Assembly (NCBI GenBank): GCA_913061415.1
Contig: CAJXUD010000007.1
Location: 62,001-126,000 of the forward strand
Direction: 5' to 3'
DNA length: 64,000 bases
DNA from: an uncultured Oleispira sp.
GTDB lineage: Bacteria; Pseudomonadota; Gammaproteobacteria; Pseudomonadales; Oceanobacteraceae
Both the position numbers and the translations under genes were made by a program. Below the pieces are notes generated by a model. That model saw only the letters and a list, made by a program, of their open reading frames with translations, did no database searches and was not told where the DNA came from. This document shows, piece by piece, positions 2,799 to 62,813 of the stretch (positions within the stretch are counted from its first letter, which is position 1; every line of letters begins with the position of its first letter).

Positions 2799-4112
2799 AT
2801 GGTTCATTCTTACTGCTTAAAACCTAGCAACAACTCAAGCCTTTCTGCTTTTTTTGTTTCTATATCGTCATTTTTGATGGCATTGGCACTGACACTTGTT
2901 TTTGCCTTATCTCCAATGATGGCTCATGCTAAAACGCCCAGCCAATCTTTATCGCCAAAAACATATCAAAAGCTGAATGATATTCAGGGGCTATTAGCTG
3001 AGAGCAAATTTGCTGAGGTAGAAGAGGAACTTAAAGATTTAGAAGAAAATCTTAATCCTGGTTTTGGTTTGGCGCTTACCTATCAAACTCATGCGCAATT
3101 ATTTTTAGCCCAAGAAAATAGCCCAAAAGCGCTGGAGTATTTTAATAAAGCTTTGGCGTTAGAAGCGTTAAAGTCGACTCAGGCCGTATCGTTAGCCACC
3201 AATGTTGCACAGCTTTATTTAGCCAATAGCCAAGTGGAAGAGGCGATTGGCGTTTTGCAATCACGCATCGAAGCCGCTGAACAAGAGAAGCCAGGGTCGA
3301 CGATTGCGATGGCATATATTTCTTTGGGTTCTTCTTATCAATTAAAGCAGGACTTTGCGAACGCCATTATTTGGTTGCGCCAAGGTATTGAGCGAGCCAA
3401 GATTCCAAGAGAAAATTGGTTGCAGATGTTGATGGCGGCTCATTATCAATTACAACAGTATGCTGAAGCGGTTGTGGTTATTGATCAGCTGATTACGATT
3501 AATGAGCAAAAAGAAGAATACTGGTTACAGCAAGCGTCACTGTACCAGATGATGAATAAGCCAAAAGATGCGCTTAATGTATTACAGTTGGCGAATGTGC
3601 GTAATGTTTTGGTCAAAGAGGATGGGCTGATTAGTCTAGTTCAGTTGCTCATTACTGAAGGCGTACCAGAACGTGCGGGGCGAATTTTGCTAGCGCTTTT
3701 GGAGAATCAAAAGATTGAGCTGACGGATGATAACTGGACGTTATTAGCGTCTGCTTGGTTGCAAAGTCGGGAGCGTTCTCTTGCGATTGCGGCTTTTATA
3801 AAAGCGGCTGACGCTAGCCAAGCATCAGCAAATAAGAAGGATGCGGCAAATTTATATTTCCGCAGTGCGCAGCTGCAGTTTGATGAATCTGATTTTAACG
3901 GCGCTATCGCAAGCTTTGCTAAGGCAAGGGAGCTTGGGCTTGGTAGTAAGCAAACTGGAATCAGTCTGTTAATGCAGGGGAATGCGTATTTTGAGCTTGA
4001 GGATTATAGCAATGCAAAGGTCTATTTTTCTAAGGCGCTACAAGAACCGAGTTCGACGAACAGTGCTAAAGCATGGTTAGAATATATGGAGCAGTTGGAG
4101 TTGTTGGATTAG
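2799..4112 (+). CDS. TPR repeat protein of the TonB2-type operon
   Basis: Repeated TPR-like helices (SPKALEYFNKALALE; AIASFAKARELG; AKVYFSKALQEP), N-terminal signal peptide, 3 bp after tonB. Confidence 0.85.
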   Translation: MVHSYCLKPSNNSSLSAFFVSISSFLMALALTLVFALSPMMAHAKTPSQSLSPKTYQKLNDIQGLLAESKFAEVEEELKDLEENLNPGFGLALTYQTHAQLFLAQENSPKALEYFNKALALEALKSTQAVSLATNVAQLYLANSQVEEAIGVLQSRIEAAEQEKPGSTIAMAYISLGSSYQLKQDFANAIIWLRQGIERAKIPRENWLQMLMAAHYQLQQYAEAVVVIDQLITINEQKEEYWLQQASLYQMMNKPKDALNVLQLANVRNVLVKEDGLISLVQLLITEGVPERAGRILLALLENQKIELTDDNWTLLASAWLQSRERSLAIAAFIKAADASQASANKKDAANLYFRSAQLQFDESDFNGAIASFAKARELGLGSKQTGISLLMQGNAYFELEDYSNAKVYFSKALQEPSSTNSAKAWLEYMEQLELLD

Positions 4113-4144
4113 TTGCTGAGTTGCTTGTGAAATAGTTGCTGAAA

Positions 4145-4170
4145 AACCTCAGGTATTAATACCTGAGGTT
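4145..4170. terminator. Perfect palindrome aacctcaggtattaatacctgaggtt, probable bidirectional terminator
   Basis: 26-bp perfect inverted repeat between convergent genes, flanked by A- and T-rich tracts. Confidence 0.75.
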
Positions 4171-4204
4171 CGCTTTTAAACTGACTGCTCAGTTTTTCAA
4201 TTTA

Positions 4205-4444
4205 CTACTCGGCGCTTGCCGAGGTATTCTCTTCTCGTAAAAGATCAACTAAGCCGACGACTTTATCGTTCCAAGCTTGGCGCTCAGATTCTAGCTTGGC
4301 ATTTTCTTCCTTTAACGCATTGTTTTGTTCTTCTAGATCGCTATTACGCTGTTTCTCTTCTTCTATTTCTAGATTTAAAAGTTCCATTGTTTCTAACGTT
4401 GTTTGAATCTTTGCTTCTAGAGTGGCTAATAATTCTAAGCTCAT
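4205..4444 (-). CDS. zapB: Cell division protein ZapB-like coiled coil (start set at internal Met of the 99-aa ORF)
   Basis: [34 protein letters not shown] resembles the ZapB N-terminus ([34 protein letters not shown]). Confidence 0.8.
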
Positions 4445-4600
4445 GTGTCTATTTACCTCTTTTGTCTTCGTATTGGCTGTGTTGTTTGTACTTTTAAAAA
4501 TCATGAATATGACAATGTTTTCGCGAATAAGTTTAACACTTGTTCGTCATTTTGGCAGAGCAAACTTCACATATTCAACTTTATTGTCATCCAGCAGGTT

Positions 4601-5425
4601 TTAAACTTTCGTTAGATCAAAATCCGACCAAATTGGTGCGTGGTCAGACGGTTTTTCCATACCGCGAATATCATAGCTAATACCTGCTGCGGTACAGGCT
4701 TCGGTCAAAGCAGGGGTTGTTAAAATGTGATCGATGCGCAGCCCTCGCTTGGGTTCATCGGCAAAACCTTTTGAGCGGTAATCAAACCAGCTGAATTGGT
4801 CGTTGCTAGTTGGATAATGCTTACGGTAAGTATCGGTTAAGTTTCTTGAAAGTAAATCTTGATACCATTCACGCTCAATGGGTAAGAATGAGCATTTTTT
4901 GGTTTTTAACCAGCGCTTACGATTCGGTTCGCCAATACCAATGTCGGTATCTTCTGGTGATATGTTCATATCGCCCATTAGTAAAATATTGTCAGCGTCT
5001 TTTAATTCGTTATCTAGGTAGTTATTGAGGTCGACATAAAACTTAGCTTTCGCGGGAAATTTAGTTTCATGAACTTCACTTTCCCCTTGTGGGAAGTAGC
5101 CATTTAAAACGTCAATGATTTTGCCATCGATGTCATAGCGGCAGTGTATTAGGCGTTTTTGATCATCTTCGCTATCGCTAGGGAAGCCTTTTTGTACAAA
5201 GATAGGTTTGCTTTTGGAAACGAGCGCAACGCCGTAGTGGCTTTTTTGGCCAAAGTATTCAACGTGCCAACCAATGGATTCTACATCGGCTAATGGAAAA
5301 GATTCATCGTGAACCTTGGTTTCTTGTAAGCCCATGACTTCTGGGTCTAGTTGTTCTTTGATGGCTTCGAGCTGATGTTGACGGGCACGGATGCCGTTGA
5401 TGTTGAAGCTAATGAAACGCGTCAT
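4601..5425 (-). CDS. xthA: Exodeoxyribonuclease III
   Basis: [56 protein letters not shown] motifs of the EEP nuclease family. Confidence 0.9.
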
Positions 5426-10774: not shown

Positions 10775-11920
10775 TTAGAACTTAAGCTTTTGCCATGCTT
10801 TGTGCCATAGATCGTCTTCTGCATGCTGGTATATGGCGGTTGTTTCTATTTTCTCGTGTCTGGCAGAGCGGGTTAGGTATTTAAGGTCGATACCCGCATC
10901 GTCACCATGCGTTACCGAAGTATGTCGAAACCAGTGGGTTGATGCTTTTTCAAGTATCGATGCTTGGATCGGGTTATCTAGTTTGATTGACTCTGCGGCT
11001 TCTTTTACTACCGTTTTGACTTGTCGATAAACCATGTTGGCACTAATGCCTTTACCACCACTAATGCTACGCAATAATGGTGAGTGGTCATCTTCAGATG
11101 GGAGTGGGGTTAATCCTAAGTGCTCACGATACTGTATTAATGCTGCGAGCATCTCATCACTTGCTGGGATTTTTCCTTGTTTTTCGCCTTTGCCCAAAAC
11201 AAACCACCACCACTGTCCGCGATACAGACGAAAGCTGTTCATGCTGTGGCTGCTAACTTCACTGACTCGCGGCGCCATTAAATACAGCAAGTGAAATAAG
11301 AAGCGATTGCGCTGAAAGTGATTCATTTGCTTGGGGCTATCTGTCGGCTGACTTGAAAGGTGGTTTTTTAGCAGTTGCCAGGTTTTGTGATCAAGATAGC
11401 GCTGCTGGCTGATTGCCTGGTCTGTTTGCGGGCGCAGCTTTCGATTGCGGCGGCGAATAAGAGACAGTGGGTTGCCTGCTAAATAGCCCGCATCTACTAA
11501 ATAACTGAATAGGGCATTAACAATAATAAGCGCCTGACGTTGGCTATTCTCGCTTAACGGCCCCTTGAATGGACGCCACTCAGTACTGGTTCGCTCGGCG
11601 CGTGGCCCGCACCAGATTTCACTGGGCTGTGGGTCGGTGAGGAACTCTTGGTAAAGCTGAAAGTCTTCACGGCTTAAGTCTGATAGGGCTTTTCTGCGCT
11701 GATTGATGGACCAGAGTAAAAGGCGCTCGGCTTCTTTGCGGTAATTGCGTAGGGTTTGCGGTGAGTCGTAGAATTCGTTTAGCCAGCATTGGATGGCTTG
11801 CCAGTCGGTATTGGCGTTGATTTGGCAGTACTTAATATCATAGCGATTACGGCCTTGGCTGCCTGTTAGGTGTGGTGGCAGGGTGAGGGATTCTATCGGG
11901 ATTATTGGGTGTTTTTTCAT
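10775..11920 (-). CDS. Site-specific tyrosine recombinase (integrase 1)
   Basis: Catalytic set: APRVSEV (R), GKGEKQGKIP (K), HWFRH (HxxR), ARHEKIETTAIYQH (H...Y). Confidence 0.9.
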   Translation of the reverse strand: MKKHPIIPIESLTLPPHLTGSQGRNRYDIKYCQINANTDWQAIQCWLNEFYDSPQTLRNYRKEAERLLLWSINQRRKALSDLSREDFQLYQEFLTDPQPSEIWCGPRAERTSTEWRPFKGPLSENSQRQALIIVNALFSYLVDAGYLAGNPLSLIRRRNRKLRPQTDQAISQQRYLDHKTWQLLKNHLSSQPTDSPKQMNHFQRNRFLFHLLYLMAPRVSEVSSHSMNSFRLYRGQWWWFVLGKGEKQGKIPASDEMLAALIQYREHLGLTPLPSEDDHSPLLRSISGGKGISANMVYRQVKTVVKEAAESIKLDNPIQASILEKASTHWFRHTSVTHGDDAGIDLKYLTRSARHEKIETTAIYQHAEDDLWHKAWQKLKF

Positions 11921-12003
11921 TTGCTGGCTTTGTACATCTGTTGTGAATGGCTTTTATCTTGTGCGTGTTTTTCAAATACAGGACTCTACCATTCCAAGGA
12001 AAT

Positions 12004-12035
12004 AAATTCATGATAATAGGGTTAATCATGAATTT
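12004..12035. promoter_or_regulatory. Perfect inverted repeat aaattcatgat-N10-atcatgaattt between divergent integrase 1 and KfrA-like gene; candidate operator or recombination core
   Basis: 11-bp perfect arms read directly; spacer aatagggtta. Confidence 0.6.
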
Positions 12036-12199
12036 TTTCTTAAAGGTTGGTATTTTGTAATGTTTATCTAACACATTAAACCTTACAAACTGAAACTCAT
12101 TCATTTAAACTAACGCCAAAGGTGGCTCCTCAATACAAAATGGTTCACCAGTCGCTTAAGTAGATCTCAAATAAAACTCTAACCCAAGGCCTTAACTTA

Positions 12200-13246
12200 A
12201 TGAGTATTAAAAAAGCCACCCCAAAAGCTGTATTCGATGCCTGCGAGCAACTAGAGCTGTTAGACAAGACATGGAATCGCGATGACGTTCGTATGATTAT
12301 TGGTGGCGGAAGTTTCGTGGTTATTGATCCGCTAATACAGGCTTGGCGTAAGCTTCAGCCTGTTCGCGAGGTGGCACCAACCGTTCCGACCGAACTGTTA
12401 ATTCAAGTAGCCTCCATGCTTGAAAAGCAGATGGCGGATTTTATTGGGACAGTTGAGCAACAGGATAAAGAGCGTGAAGAGATTCTTTTATCACTCAATA
12501 AAAGTGCTTCAGAAAACTTTGAACTTAGGGAGTCACAATTAGAAGCTGAGCTTGAGCTAGCTCGACACGCTAATCATGAGTTAGAAGCGGAGTTTTCGCG
12601 CAAGGAGTCCGAGTTAGTCAACTGCAGGCAGGAAATTCAAGCGCTGCAGTTAAAGCTACAAGTATCAAACGAGGCGGCGGTTTCTTTGAATGCTCGACTG
12701 CAGGAGCAAAAAGAATTTTATGAGCATACTATCGAAGAGCAGAAGCAAGCTCATGCAGGTGACAAGGAAAGAACTGCGGAGCAACATTTGCTTACCATTA
12801 ACGAGATTAAGCTTGATGCGCAGCAGCAGCTAGCCCAGCAAAAAAACGCACTTACAGAATCTGCGGAGATTGCCGAAAATCGCTTAATGAGACTTCTGGA
12901 CCAGTCTCGCAGCGAGCAAAAACAATTAGTTGGCGAGCTTACTAAAAAGACAGAATCCCTGAGCCATGACTTGCAAGGAGAGAGGCAGATTTGTCATGGG
13001 CAAAAGCTTGAGATTGCATCACTGACTTCGGCGCTAAATGATACTAAGGAAAACCTGCAGGCTCATAAAGAGGAGCAGGCTGAGGCCTTTACCTTGCGAC
13101 TTGCTGCACTTCAAGCTGAGAATGACGACCTAAAAGAACAGGTTGCTGGATTTAAAGATAAGGACGGAGTGCGGGAGTTGTCGGATATTCAGCAATTACG
13201 CGAGTCTATTAAACAGCTTCAGGATCGGGTTTTGGGTGGCTCTTGA
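12200..13246 (+). CDS. KfrA-like DNA-binding protein with long coiled coil
   Basis: N-terminal TPKAVFDACEQLELLDKTWNRDDVRMIIGGGSFVVIDPLIQAWRK resembles the KfrA N-terminal DNA-binding domain; remainder heptad-rich (Q/E/L-rich). Confidence 0.8.
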   Translation: MSIKKATPKAVFDACEQLELLDKTWNRDDVRMIIGGGSFVVIDPLIQAWRKLQPVREVAPTVPTELLIQVASMLEKQMADFIGTVEQQDKEREEILLSLNKSASENFELRESQLEAELELARHANHELEAEFSRKESELVNCRQEIQALQLKLQVSNEAAVSLNARLQEQKEFYEHTIEEQKQAHAGDKERTAEQHLLTINEIKLDAQQQLAQQKNALTESAEIAENRLMRLLDQSRSEQKQLVGELTKKTESLSHDLQGERQICHGQKLEIASLTSALNDTKENLQAHKEEQAEAFTLRLAALQAENDDLKEQVAGFKDKDGVRELSDIQQLRESIKQLQDRVLGGS

Positions 13247-13273
13247 TAGTTAATCACAGGAAACCAGAAGGCA

Positions 13274-14548
13274 TCATTCAGGCTTGATCTTCTTGTGCTT
13301 GGCACTGGCGTGGCGTTCGCGCATTTCGGTATCAATATAGCGATCAGTTGTTGCCATACTTGCATGTCCGGCGTCGTCACGAACATGTTCTTTTGGTCGG
13401 TGCTTCACATCTTCAGATATTCCTGTGTGCCTGAGCCAGTGAACGGTAGCGGCTTTAAGCTCAAGAGCCTCTTCTTTTAATCCTTGTTCGCGCATCCTTT
13501 GATATGCTTGATCAAAGCAATCCTGCACAATGAATCGAATTTGACGCGTACTGGTTACCGGCCCTGTGCCTTTTATTTTGGATATCATTGGCGTAGATTC
13601 ACTCACATGAGGCAGCGGTGATAGCCCAAGGTGGGTTCGGTAGCGCTTTAGTGCCGCTAGCATGTCATCGGACACAGTAATCATTCTGACTTTGTTACCC
13701 TTACCTGTAACCTGCAACCACCAGTTGTTATCAATATCAGCTCGAAAATCACCCATGGTTGGGGTTGAGCGGCCATCGGCGACCAGCTCAGAAATTCGCA
13801 AGTACATTGCAAATAGGCAATTCATAATAAACAAGCTGCGCTCATGCTGCTTAGGGTTTTCTGCTGCGTTCATCTCCACAGTTTCTAGAACAAAGTCCCA
13901 CTGTAAGTTTGAAATGCGGCGAATAGGTTCTTTATAAGCATGGGTCTGAAGGTATTTGCTTTTTTGTCGAATTAAAGCAACAGGGTTTAGTTCGCCATAA
14001 TCTTCTTGCAGTAAATAGTTAAAGAAGGTCGATAGTATGGAAAAGACGGCCTGCAGGCTCTTTTGAGAAAGCTTGAAGTGCTTAGTGTCAGGGCGCTGGC
14101 CAAGCTGGGTCTCTACTTTTGTTATTTGGCTAACAAAAGGGCGCCAGTCTGGGTTGATGATGCGCTGGCCTTGACTGTTTTTAAAGCGAGCAACTTGTTT
14201 TGTGCCTATCCAGCTAAGAGGAGGGTGCTGGCAGAATTCTAAATACTCTTCAATATCTAGGCGTCTGAGCTCAGGTAATGTTTTTTCTTGAACAAACCAA
14301 GACCATTGCACCAATCGCTCGACTTCTCGGCGGTAGCTATTGAAGGTTGCCTGACTGCCGTTATAGCTCTGTAAAAATGTCAGGCAGTGATAAAGATCCT
14401 CCTTGCCACACTTAGGTGTCTGCTTTATCTGCCTAGCAAATATTGCATCAACTTCCTTTAATGGGCCTGCTAGATATTGAAGGTTATCAAACATAGGGCT
14501 TGGAGACTGTGACAAAAGGGCAGATAAGGTATTGGAGATTGAGGTCAT
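13274..14548 (-). CDS. Site-specific tyrosine recombinase (integrase 2)
   Basis: MYLRISEL (R), GKGNKVRMITV (K), HWLRHTGI (HxxR), AGHASMATTDRYID (H...Y). Confidence 0.92.
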   Translation of the reverse strand: MTSISNTLSALLSQSPSPMFDNLQYLAGPLKEVDAIFARQIKQTPKCGKEDLYHCLTFLQSYNGSQATFNSYRREVERLVQWSWFVQEKTLPELRRLDIEEYLEFCQHPPLSWIGTKQVARFKNSQGQRIINPDWRPFVSQITKVETQLGQRPDTKHFKLSQKSLQAVFSILSTFFNYLLQEDYGELNPVALIRQKSKYLQTHAYKEPIRRISNLQWDFVLETVEMNAAENPKQHERSLFIMNCLFAMYLRISELVADGRSTPTMGDFRADIDNNWWLQVTGKGNKVRMITVSDDMLAALKRYRTHLGLSPLPHVSESTPMISKIKGTGPVTSTRQIRFIVQDCFDQAYQRMREQGLKEEALELKAATVHWLRHTGISEDVKHRPKEHVRDDAGHASMATTDRYIDTEMRERHASAKHKKIKPE

Positions 14549-15181: not shown

Positions 15182-15487
15182 AATCCCACTCGTAATGCGC
15201 GATAAAAGCTTTCAGCTGAAATCGTGAATACTTATGAGTGGGGTGCTTAAGTCAAATTCCCCATCAGATTTATACCTCGTAAGACCCCCTAGCTTTATAA
15301 AATCTCTACTCGTATAAACAATCTACCTCTCTAATCATGTTTATTTCTAGTCTTACTTATTTCTGGCTATGATTCTTAGCAATGATGTTTTTAGGATGCT
15401 GTAATTCGTCGTGTGCAATTCTGAGGGTATTAATAACAAGTATACATGTGGGCCTGGAATACTACTAAAATGGCGATTGTTCTTTTA

Positions 15488-15511
15488 TTCCGATAATAAC
15501 AATTATCGGAA
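15488..15511. repeat. 24-bp palindrome ttccgataat-aaca-attatcggaa
   Basis: Perfect 10-bp arms read directly. Confidence 0.7.
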
Positions 15512-15675
15512 GTATAAGGTATTGTTAAGTGTGAGTATATCTACCTGATTTATCGACTACAGCCTGTGCGGCATGGTCAGCCTACACAACGATTCTTTAC
15601 GGTCAGCATATTCAAGAATTACATATGCTATTTCAACACTACTTTTTTTAGAAGAAATTAAAGGCTTAGAAATAA

Positions 15676-16023
15676 TTAAAGGCTTAGGAATAGCTCAAAT
15701 TCTACCTCTAACTGGTAATAGGCTTTAGTTAGCTCCGCATGAATGCTTGCTGCTTCTTGCCAGTCTTGCAGCTTAAGCGCTTTCAATAACTCAGTGCATA
15801 TACCCTCAAAGTGTACGGTACAAAAATTTGAGGATGTTCCTTTTAATGAATGTACTGCGACGTGACTTTCATCATAATCTTGCCGCTGAATGCCATTCAG
15901 CGCTTGATGCAATTGCCCTGGAGCATCTCGTAAGAATAACGTAACCAGCTTTTCGATTAAGCTACGATCACCGCCTAAGCGTGATATGGTTCTTTCTTCA
16001 TCCCAGCATGGCTGCTTACTCAT
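15676..16023 (-). CDS. Hpt (histidine phosphotransfer) domain protein
   Basis: LVTLFLRDAPGQLHQALNGIQRQDYDESHVAVHSLKGTSSNFC: HSLKGTS phospho-His motif. Confidence 0.88.
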   Translation of the reverse strand: MSKQPCWDEERTISRLGGDRSLIEKLVTLFLRDAPGQLHQALNGIQRQDYDESHVAVHSLKGTSSNFCTVHFEGICTELLKALKLQDWQEAASIHAELTKAYYQLEVEFELFLSL

Positions 16024-60215: not shown

Positions 60216-62813
60216 CTAGCGATTTATCGGGGGTGGAGCAATAACTTCACGACTACCATTGTGCGCAGCAGGTGAAACCACCCCGCTTGCTTCCATTGTT
60301 TCTACTAACCGAGCCGCGCGGTTATAGCCAATGCGTAATTTACGCTGTACTGATGATATAGAGACCTTGCGCGTTTCTGTAACAAAAGCAACAGCTTGAT
60401 CGTACAGGTCATCCTTCTCATCGCCACCTTCAAGGGTTAGCCCAGCTTGCTCTGTGGCCTGGGTGATTTCTTCGATGTAATTCGGCTCGCCTTTGGTCTT
60501 CCATTCAGCAACAACCCTATGAACCTCATCATCATCAACAAAAGCACCATGAACACGAATTGGAATGCTGGTTCCTGCGGGCTGAAATAGCATGTCACCA
60601 TGGCCTAATAACTGCTCTGCGCCACCTTGATCTAAAATAGTGCGAGAATCAATTTTAGATGAAACTTGGAACGCTATTCGGGTAGGTACGTTGGCCTTAA
60701 TTAGGCCGGTAATAACATCCACCGAAGGACGCTGGGTGGCTAGAATCAGGTGAATACCTGCCGCTCGGGCTTTTTGTGCAATTCGAGCGATGAGCTCTTC
60801 AACCTTTTTGCCAACCGTCATCATCATATCGGCAAACTCATCCACTATGACAACAATATAAGGCAGTGGTTCTAATGTAGGCGGCGTAGTATCAAAACTC
60901 TGATCTATGCGCCAAAGTGGATCGGGGACGGGCTTACCTTCAGCAATCGCAGCTCTTACTTTAGCGTTGTGCCCAGCTACATTACGAACACCCATCGCCG
61001 CCATCAGCTGATAGCGGCGTTCCATTTCTTCTACACACCAGCGTAAGCCATTTGCCGCTTCTTTCATGTCAGTAATAACGGGCGTTAAAAGATGCGGTAT
61101 ACCTTCATAAACTGAGAGTTCAAGCATCTTTGGATCAACCATAATCAAGCGAACTTCATCAGGAGTCGACTTGTATAACAGGCTGATAATCATGGCGTTC
61201 ACGCCTACAGATTTACCCGAGCCAGTGGTGCCTGCAACCAGTAAATGCGGCATTTTAGCCAAATCAGTCACCACTGGATTGCCTGCAATGTCATGACCTA
61301 ACGCGATGGTTAGTGGCGATTTGGATTTGTCGAAATCTTCTGATGATAAAACGGAAGAAAGGCGAACCATGGCGCGGTGTTCATTGGGGATTTCTATTCC
61401 CATAACAGACTTGCCTGGAATTACTTCGACCACACGAACGCTATTCATTGCCATTGAACGTGCAAGATCTTGTGCAATACCCGAAACCTTGCTGGCTTTG
61501 GTTCCAGGGGCAGGCTGAATTTCAAAGCGAGTAATTACAGGGCCTGGGGCGACGGCCATTACTTCTGCTTTGATGCCAAAATCAGCCAGTTTCTGCTCGA
61601 GCATAATGGATAATTCTTCTAGACGCGCTTTTGAATATCCTATTTTTTGATCTTCATCGGCTGGGTCTAATAAGGCAATTGAGGGGAGTGGATTTTCTTC
61701 TGTGAATAATTTTCCTTGAAGATCACGAACCGCGCGCTCGCTTGGTTTCGTATCACGTTTCTCAAGCGGCTCTATCTTTACCTCTTTCATAAGTGCAGCA
61801 GAAGTACTCAGTTTTGTATCAAGCTCTACACTGTCGATTAAAATGGGGGGTTCTTTATCCATATCGGCTGCTTTGGCTTTGACCTTACTGATAGCCGGTG
61901 CCACGAGTGCTTTGACTCGAGAGCGCACAGTGCTTAGGTTGGCATTGTCATTTATACCAGAGGTATCATTTATACCAGAGGTATCATTTACGTCAGTATC
62001 ATTTGAGGTGGCGATGCTAGACAGTAACGGTTCAATTTTTACTGATCGAGCAGGTGTTTGTAAGCCCTGCTCTAATGCTTGATCGGGCGATTGCTGTGAT
62101 GATTGTTGTCTTGAATGCAGCGTTTTGCTGGCTTTGCGTTTATTCATTTTCAACTGAATCTTTGCGGCTAAGCTCTTAAATAATTGAACGGCAGATTCAA
62201 TGATACTAAAGACAAAGCTACCAATAGCATCAAATACAGCCAGCCACGAAAACTCCCAGAACAGCATTGAGCCAATACACAACATAAGGGTCAGTAGAAT
62301 CGAGCCGCCAATCGTGCTGAATAGTGAGATTGTCAGACTGGCAATGCTCTGCCCTATCATCCCTCCTACACCCGCTGGCAACGATTCAGCCGTGAAAACG
62401 CTGAATTCAAACAACGCCGCTAGTGAGAAAACAGACAAGAAAAAACCAAGCAGGCGTAACATCCATATCGCACCGGAAGTTTCAGCCTGATGTGTCCTGA
62501 ATATTTGAACGACTTTGCCTGCAGCCAGTAATGGAATAATGTAGGCCAAATAACCGAGAGCATGAAGCAACCCATCTGCTAAATAAGCGCCGACTGGGCC
62601 GCCTGCATTTTTAAAGGATGTGTTTGCGCCTGCTGTTGACCAGCCATCATCAAGAGGGGAATATGTAACCAGCGAGAGTAAAAGATAAGCGCAAAGTGCT
62701 GTGAGGCATAGCAGAGCGATATCCTGCTTTAAATTACGTTCCTTTTTTTCTAGTTTTTCTGCTGCCAAAGCAGGTATCCTTAATAATAACAATAGATTGG
62801 CACAGTCTATCAC
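60216..62813 (-). CDS. ftsK: DNA translocase FtsK
   Basis: N-terminal TM region; [87 protein letters not shown]; gamma domain. Confidence 0.96.
61948..62000. repeat. 18-bp tandem repeat tcatttataccagaggta (two exact units plus degenerate copies) within ftsK linker
   Basis: Encodes NDTSGI-type repeats ([20 protein letters not shown]). Confidence 0.85.

Follow-up and report, generated by a model that had tools for sequence, protein, structure and literature searches.

What is the role of a chromosomal locus in which two tyrosine recombinase genes bracket a gene for a KfrA-like coiled-coil DNA-binding protein? The locus in question belongs to an uncultured Oleispira sp. and lies within a 64,000-nucleotide stretch of contig CAJXUD010000007.1 (the window), where it lies among the open reading frames (ORFs) thiI, INT1, KfrA, INT2, csp and rapA. 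INT1 (10775-11920, minus strand) encodes 381 amino acids (aa), the KfrA-like gene (12200-13246, plus strand) 348 aa and INT2 (13274-14548, minus strand) 424 aa, with 27 bp separating the KfrA-like gene from INT2. An earlier reading made from the letters of the window (the sequence-only reading) had placed the genes in the same way, and the ORFs match it; it had also joined them into one module. The locus is instead two systems: INT2, which occurs elsewhere without INT1 or KfrA and has a site and a history of its own, and INT1 plus KfrA, which form a separate pair. On comparative grounds it is very probable that we are dealing with the terminus dimer-resolution locus of a lineage that lacks XerC, XerD and dif, with an independent, plasmid-derived module beside it.

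The separate history of INT2 is apparent from its relatives, which carry the names Oleispira, Thalassolituus, Oceanobacter and Oleibacter. Of the 36 family genomes searched, 34 have an INT2 orthologue (58-90% identity), and in most of these it adjoins thiI, often with an SDR-type gene between, without INT1 or a KfrA-like gene. In all six genomes of the Oleispira group (G000-G005, the window included), KfrA and INT1 sit between INT2 and thiI at the same locus. Because the other family genomes mostly have INT2 at thiI without INT1 and KfrA, the trio is an old gene accompanied by a later insertion: INT2 is ancestral at thiI, and INT1/KfrA is a two-gene insertion that became fixed in the genus.

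Inverted repeats common to the family were not recognised directly flanking INT2, and the search was then widened to 20 kb. A de novo palindrome screen of 36 loci around INT2 (mostly ~20 kb, with no sequence supplied in advance) returned one motif far above the rest, TTCCGATAA-N6-TTATCGGAA, in 21 loci. It is unique within the window, at 15488-15511 and 0.94 kb from INT2, and is part of a 28-bp candidate dif site with 11-6-11 geometry at 15486-15513 (TATTCCGATAA-TAACAA-TTATCGGAAGT), between csp and the ORF at 15676-16023. The exact site is displayed in 31 of 36 family genomes, the invariance of its arms among these being by construction, and in the remaining five the match, not displayed, has up to three mismatches. 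Its centre is variable and conservation falls off within about three bases outside it, and in most genomes it is found 0.1-30 kb from INT2.

The window spans the replication terminus. In three complete chromosomes (G005, G016 and G017) the GC skew switches sign at the site locus, and this is not an artefact of numbering because the numbering of G017 is offset and does not start at the origin; over the first 20 kb of the window, the skew drops from +0.13 to near zero. The FtsK-orienting polar sequence (KOPS; GGGNAGGG) likewise flips polarity at the site, with counts of 18:1 versus 2:17 in the samples taken (p=2e-7). Every family genome encodes FtsK with its gamma domain; in the window the gene is ftsK (60216-62813, minus strand), whose translocase product is expected to draw the dif sites into contact. 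These same hallmarks served to recognise dif in Legionella (PMC9765430).

The standard XerCD/dif machinery is missing. Canonical gammaproteobacterial dif was found in none of the 36 family genomes and in 14-15 genomes from elsewhere in the order, and XerD exceeds the curated cut-off in the same 14 other genomes that have canonical dif. Neither XerD nor canonical dif occurs in any of the 38 genomes with an INT2 orthologue, compared with both in 14 of the 20 without one (p=4e-9), and among 362 evenly sampled Gammaproteobacteria (thresholds E<=1e-50 for INT2 and E<=1e-75 for XerD) INT2 is present in 44, XerD in 287 and both in one (p=5e-34), although these p-values overstate the evidence because related genomes are non-independent. 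XerD is thus missing from 43 of the 44 INT2 genomes. The better argument comes from switches within families, where sister genera differ (G217 versus G090 in f57, G269 versus G167 in f134, and G179 versus G358 in f146), which speaks for repeated replacement rather than a single shared loss.

INT2 itself has a precedent in XerL, which experiments have proven to be the single recombinase of Legionellales and which has been described as confined to that order (PMC9765430). Over 406 aa, INT2 is 52.7% identical to a 405-aa protein of Legionella adelaidensis whose gene adjoins tig-clpP-clpX-lon; the two proteins fall in one clade (support 100/96), apart from XerD. The catalytic Tyr is residue 385 in the L. 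adelaidensis protein; the corresponding positions are 387 in the XerL of L. pneumophila and 389 in that of Coxiella (PMC9765430). By gene context, length, Tyr position and clade, the L. adelaidensis gene is almost certainly xerL. The replicon that carries it (L201, NZ_LR134418.1) is labelled a plasmid yet holds tig, clpP, clpX, lon, spoT and gmk, and is probably a chromosomal contig. Given the identity, the position of the Tyr and the shared clade, INT2 is best classed as a recombinase of the XerL type that occurs outside Legionellales. The likeness extends to the whole XerL/dif system (PMC9765430), which consists of a single tyrosine recombinase of ~400 aa, with its catalytic Tyr at the equivalent place, and a perfect-arm palindromic intergenic site of ~30 bp near the GC-skew switch and terminus, in the absence of XerC/XerD. 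The differences are that the INT2 host is one of the marine Pseudomonadales, that the Legionellales site is more than 400 kb from the gene rather than mostly 0.1-30 kb away, and that only the Oleispira side has the additional INT1/KfrA module.

The residues R251, K283, H370, R373, H395 and Y404 of INT2 (Y404 being the catalytic Tyr) are invariant across 49 INT2-type proteins. INT1 retains equivalents of all of them, so that the catalytic positions are intact in both integrases, as the sequence-only reading had maintained, and the paralogy that it saw by eye is borne out by 29% identity (E 3e-40). The Pfam model Phage_integrase matches INT1 above its cut-off and INT2 slightly under it, and XerC/XerD models match INT2 at 1e-14 to 1e-18. 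A PDB sequence search gave a weak XerD match for INT1 and no match for INT2, whose AlphaFold model was of low confidence (pLDDT 64.7) and was left unused. A phage search with INT2 yielded distant matches only, and PADLOC yielded no matches.

Given the co-occurrence of gene and site, the absence of XerCD/dif, the mutual exclusion of INT2 and XerD, the position at the terminus and the kinship with XerL, INT2 and its site very probably constitute a chromosome dimer-resolution system. INT2 alone would bind both 11-bp arms of the 15486-15513 site, and the perfect inverted symmetry of the arms suggests a homotetramer. FtsK would load on the polarised KOPS and draw the two dif copies together at the septum, and INT2 would exchange strands across the 6-bp centre, converting a dimeric chromosome into two monomers.

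The second system, INT1 and KfrA, is restricted in this sample to the Oleispira genus. The identification of the middle gene as KfrA-like has held up: the KfrA_N match is weak in one protein search (24 bits against a cut-off of 26.1), and in a genome-wide search all six genus members pass. Between the divergent INT1 and KfrA genes, the DNA of the six species has changed to saturation apart from two blocks. The first is a palindrome at 12004-12035 (AAATTCATGAT-AATAGGGTTA-ATCATGAATTT, with an 11-6-11 core at 12006-12033), the only long invariant intergenic stretch and a candidate INT1 crossover site; each genome has one near-exact copy, and G004 has one more match at three mismatches. The second is an inverted repeat at 12057-12086 (consensus GTAAGGTTAACTGTACACATTAAACCTTAC), probably a KfrA operator or accessory site, which is conserved in the genus and occurs in part, at similar spacing, on a plasmid of Halioglobus pacificus. 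That plasmid carries INT1 (60% identity) and KfrA (37%) in the same divergent layout, with the same palindrome and almost the same centre, and the nearest relatives of INT1 are plasmid-borne recombinases. Recombinase genes divergent from a KfrA_N gene, with an 11-6-11 palindrome in between, are also found on plasmids of Azonexus, Comamonas, Cupriavidus (pENH91) and Paraburkholderia, the palindromes being beyond shuffles in most cases.

These plasmid relatives, with their shared layout and palindrome, together with an INT1 site that has no partner site in the genome, would also fit a plasmid or transposon that once integrated near dif and survives there as a remnant without function. We consider this unlikely, because the reading frames, the catalytic residues and the 32-bp palindrome have been kept over six species despite diverged intergenic DNA. 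The nonsynonymous divergence (dN) of INT1 is ~0.10, as slow as ThiI and INT2, with KfrA much faster, and synonymous divergence (dS) is saturated, which leaves dN/dS ratios mostly uncomputable. On this comparative record, INT1/KfrA is somewhat more probably than otherwise a functional, plasmid-derived resolution module. INT1 would carry out recombination at the 28-bp palindrome that lies between the two divergent genes. KfrA, a probable accessory or regulatory partner with TnpT-like architecture, would bind the inverted repeat next to it, both repressing its own gene and assisting INT1, in the way that TnpT serves TnpS. Since the single-copy INT1 site lies 3.5 kb from dif, the simplest use would be as a second resolution point at the terminus, and a second or back-up resolution system is the most likely present function.

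Other KfrA_N genes were observed in comparable surroundings. In related genera they cluster near the new dif; the order in genus g3 is kfrA-dif-rapA, with dif 39-59 bp past the kfrA stop (L094:4-1133; L117:1483-2632), and one genome (G024) has three KfrA_N genes within ~31 kb of dif. A further divergent INT1-like/KfrA_N pair occurs in G030 at a different, mobile-looking locus (L097:8108-10470).

Perfect palindromes are common as operators, and the palindrome at 15488 could in principle be a transcription-factor operator or a terminator, with INT2 acting elsewhere. This is very improbable, because the site is near-unique in each genome, further near-matches being scattered at background level; it is intergenic in nearly all loci with differing neighbours; it has 11-6-11 geometry; and it lies at the GC-skew and KOPS switch. 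Moreover, a near-identical palindrome, TTCCGATTA-N6-TAATCGGAA, is found at 1198-1225 of locus L330 from pRBL16, an IncP-2-type megaplasmid of Pseudomonas citronellolis, 2.8 kb from a 41% INT2 homologue at 3962-5257 of the same locus. Equally little can be said for INT1 and INT2 as a heteromeric, XerC/XerD-like pair acting on one site: they are paralogous, adjacent and both conserved in the genus, but INT2 stands alone in other genera, and there are two different sites, each nearly perfectly symmetric.

Further occurrences of the palindrome and of INT2 relatives were noted. The pRBL16-type homologue is found on many Pseudomonas megaplasmids. Two genomes of family f112 (G145 and G251) have exact TTCCGATAA-N6-TTATCGGAA sites and, at the thresholds applied, lack both INT2 and XerD; a more divergent recombinase may act on these sites. 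A genome of family f123 (G261) has 23 palindrome copies, apparently mostly of one sequence, TTCCGATAAGGTCTATTATCGGAA, and probably a dispersed repeat.

The weakest alternative, a mobile or recently inserted element made up of two recombinases and a KfrA-like gene, could appeal to the restriction of INT1+KfrA to one genus in the sample, to their plasmid relatives and to the small variable ORFs that in some species separate KfrA from INT2 and INT1 from thiI, but can be given almost no credence in view of the same locus in six of six species, the ancestral position of INT2 at thiI, the lack of an empty site within the genus or of flanking repeats at the locus, and a constraint on INT1 like that on ThiI. 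The minimal mobile element offered by the sequence-only reading falls with it, on the very ground that this reading had named as one that would argue against mobility. What stands of that reading's overall interpretation is its domesticated recombination system, in keeping with the shared locus of the six genus members and the ancestry of INT2; the single module does not stand, and the two sites, the absence of XerC/XerD/dif and the position at the terminus had been missed.

Several observations weigh against the interpretation favoured here, namely a XerL-type dimer-resolution locus with a plasmid-derived module beside it. The pairing of INT2 with its site rests on co-occurrence, and the distance between them exceeds 100 kb in some genomes. 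The identity of the L. adelaidensis XerL relies on gene context, length, Tyr position and clade, Lpg1867 not being the comparator. One genome, G105, has XerD alongside a partial INT2 match and is the sole double genome of the 362, 32 of which have neither gene; in the family, G031 and G034 lack both an INT2 orthologue and XerD. The role of INT1/KfrA is weakly constrained, and neither protein has a BLAST match to TnpS/TnpT at E<0.01, the shared features being domains only (KfrA_N and Phage_integrase).

Among other known systems, XerCD/dif shares with the INT2 system a 28-bp 11-6-11 terminus site and the KOPS/FtsK context; it differs in that INT2 is one recombinase rather than XerC and XerD, and the TTCCGATAA arms are unrelated to the canonical ones. 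XerH/difH and XerS/difSL resemble the INT2 system in using one recombinase and a site close to its gene; their dif arms are, according to the literature, just partly symmetric, and no specific sequence match to the INT2 system was found. For INT1/KfrA, the closest parallel in layout is TnpS/TnpT/rst of Tn4651, in which a recombinase is divergent from a KfrA_N coiled-coil gene (TnpT has a strong KfrA_N domain, 93 bits), with two inverted-repeat pairs between. INT1/KfrA resembles this arrangement and would work in a similar way, and there is no transposase ORF among thiI, INT1, KfrA, INT2, csp and rapA, unlike a Tn3-family transposon with tnpA. Plasmid KfrA likewise combines KfrA_N with a long coiled coil; the protein here is chromosomal and coupled to a recombinase. 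RIT elements are operons of three recombinases, and GInt elements have three plus a fourth gene; the locus fits neither, as it has two recombinases only and these are not co-operonic.

Finally, in a survey of 2009, 12.2% of the proteobacterial species covered, large-genome marine ones included, lacked dif/Xer, and its authors asked what becomes of chromosome dimers in such species (PMC2731167). A concrete replacement, one recombinase and one 28-bp site, can now be proposed across an entire marine family and in more than 40 sampled species, and the position of dif becomes predictable in INT2 genomes. Tentatively, and with rather less confidence, we suggest that Oleispira keeps an ancestral XerL/dif and a recruited INT1/KfrA/site module side by side, that KfrA may organise the terminus or gate recombination, and that XerCD may have given way to XerL-type systems in roughly one of every eight gammaproteobacterial species sampled. 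In Oleispira, a plasmid-type resolution module at the terminus appears to be under selection.
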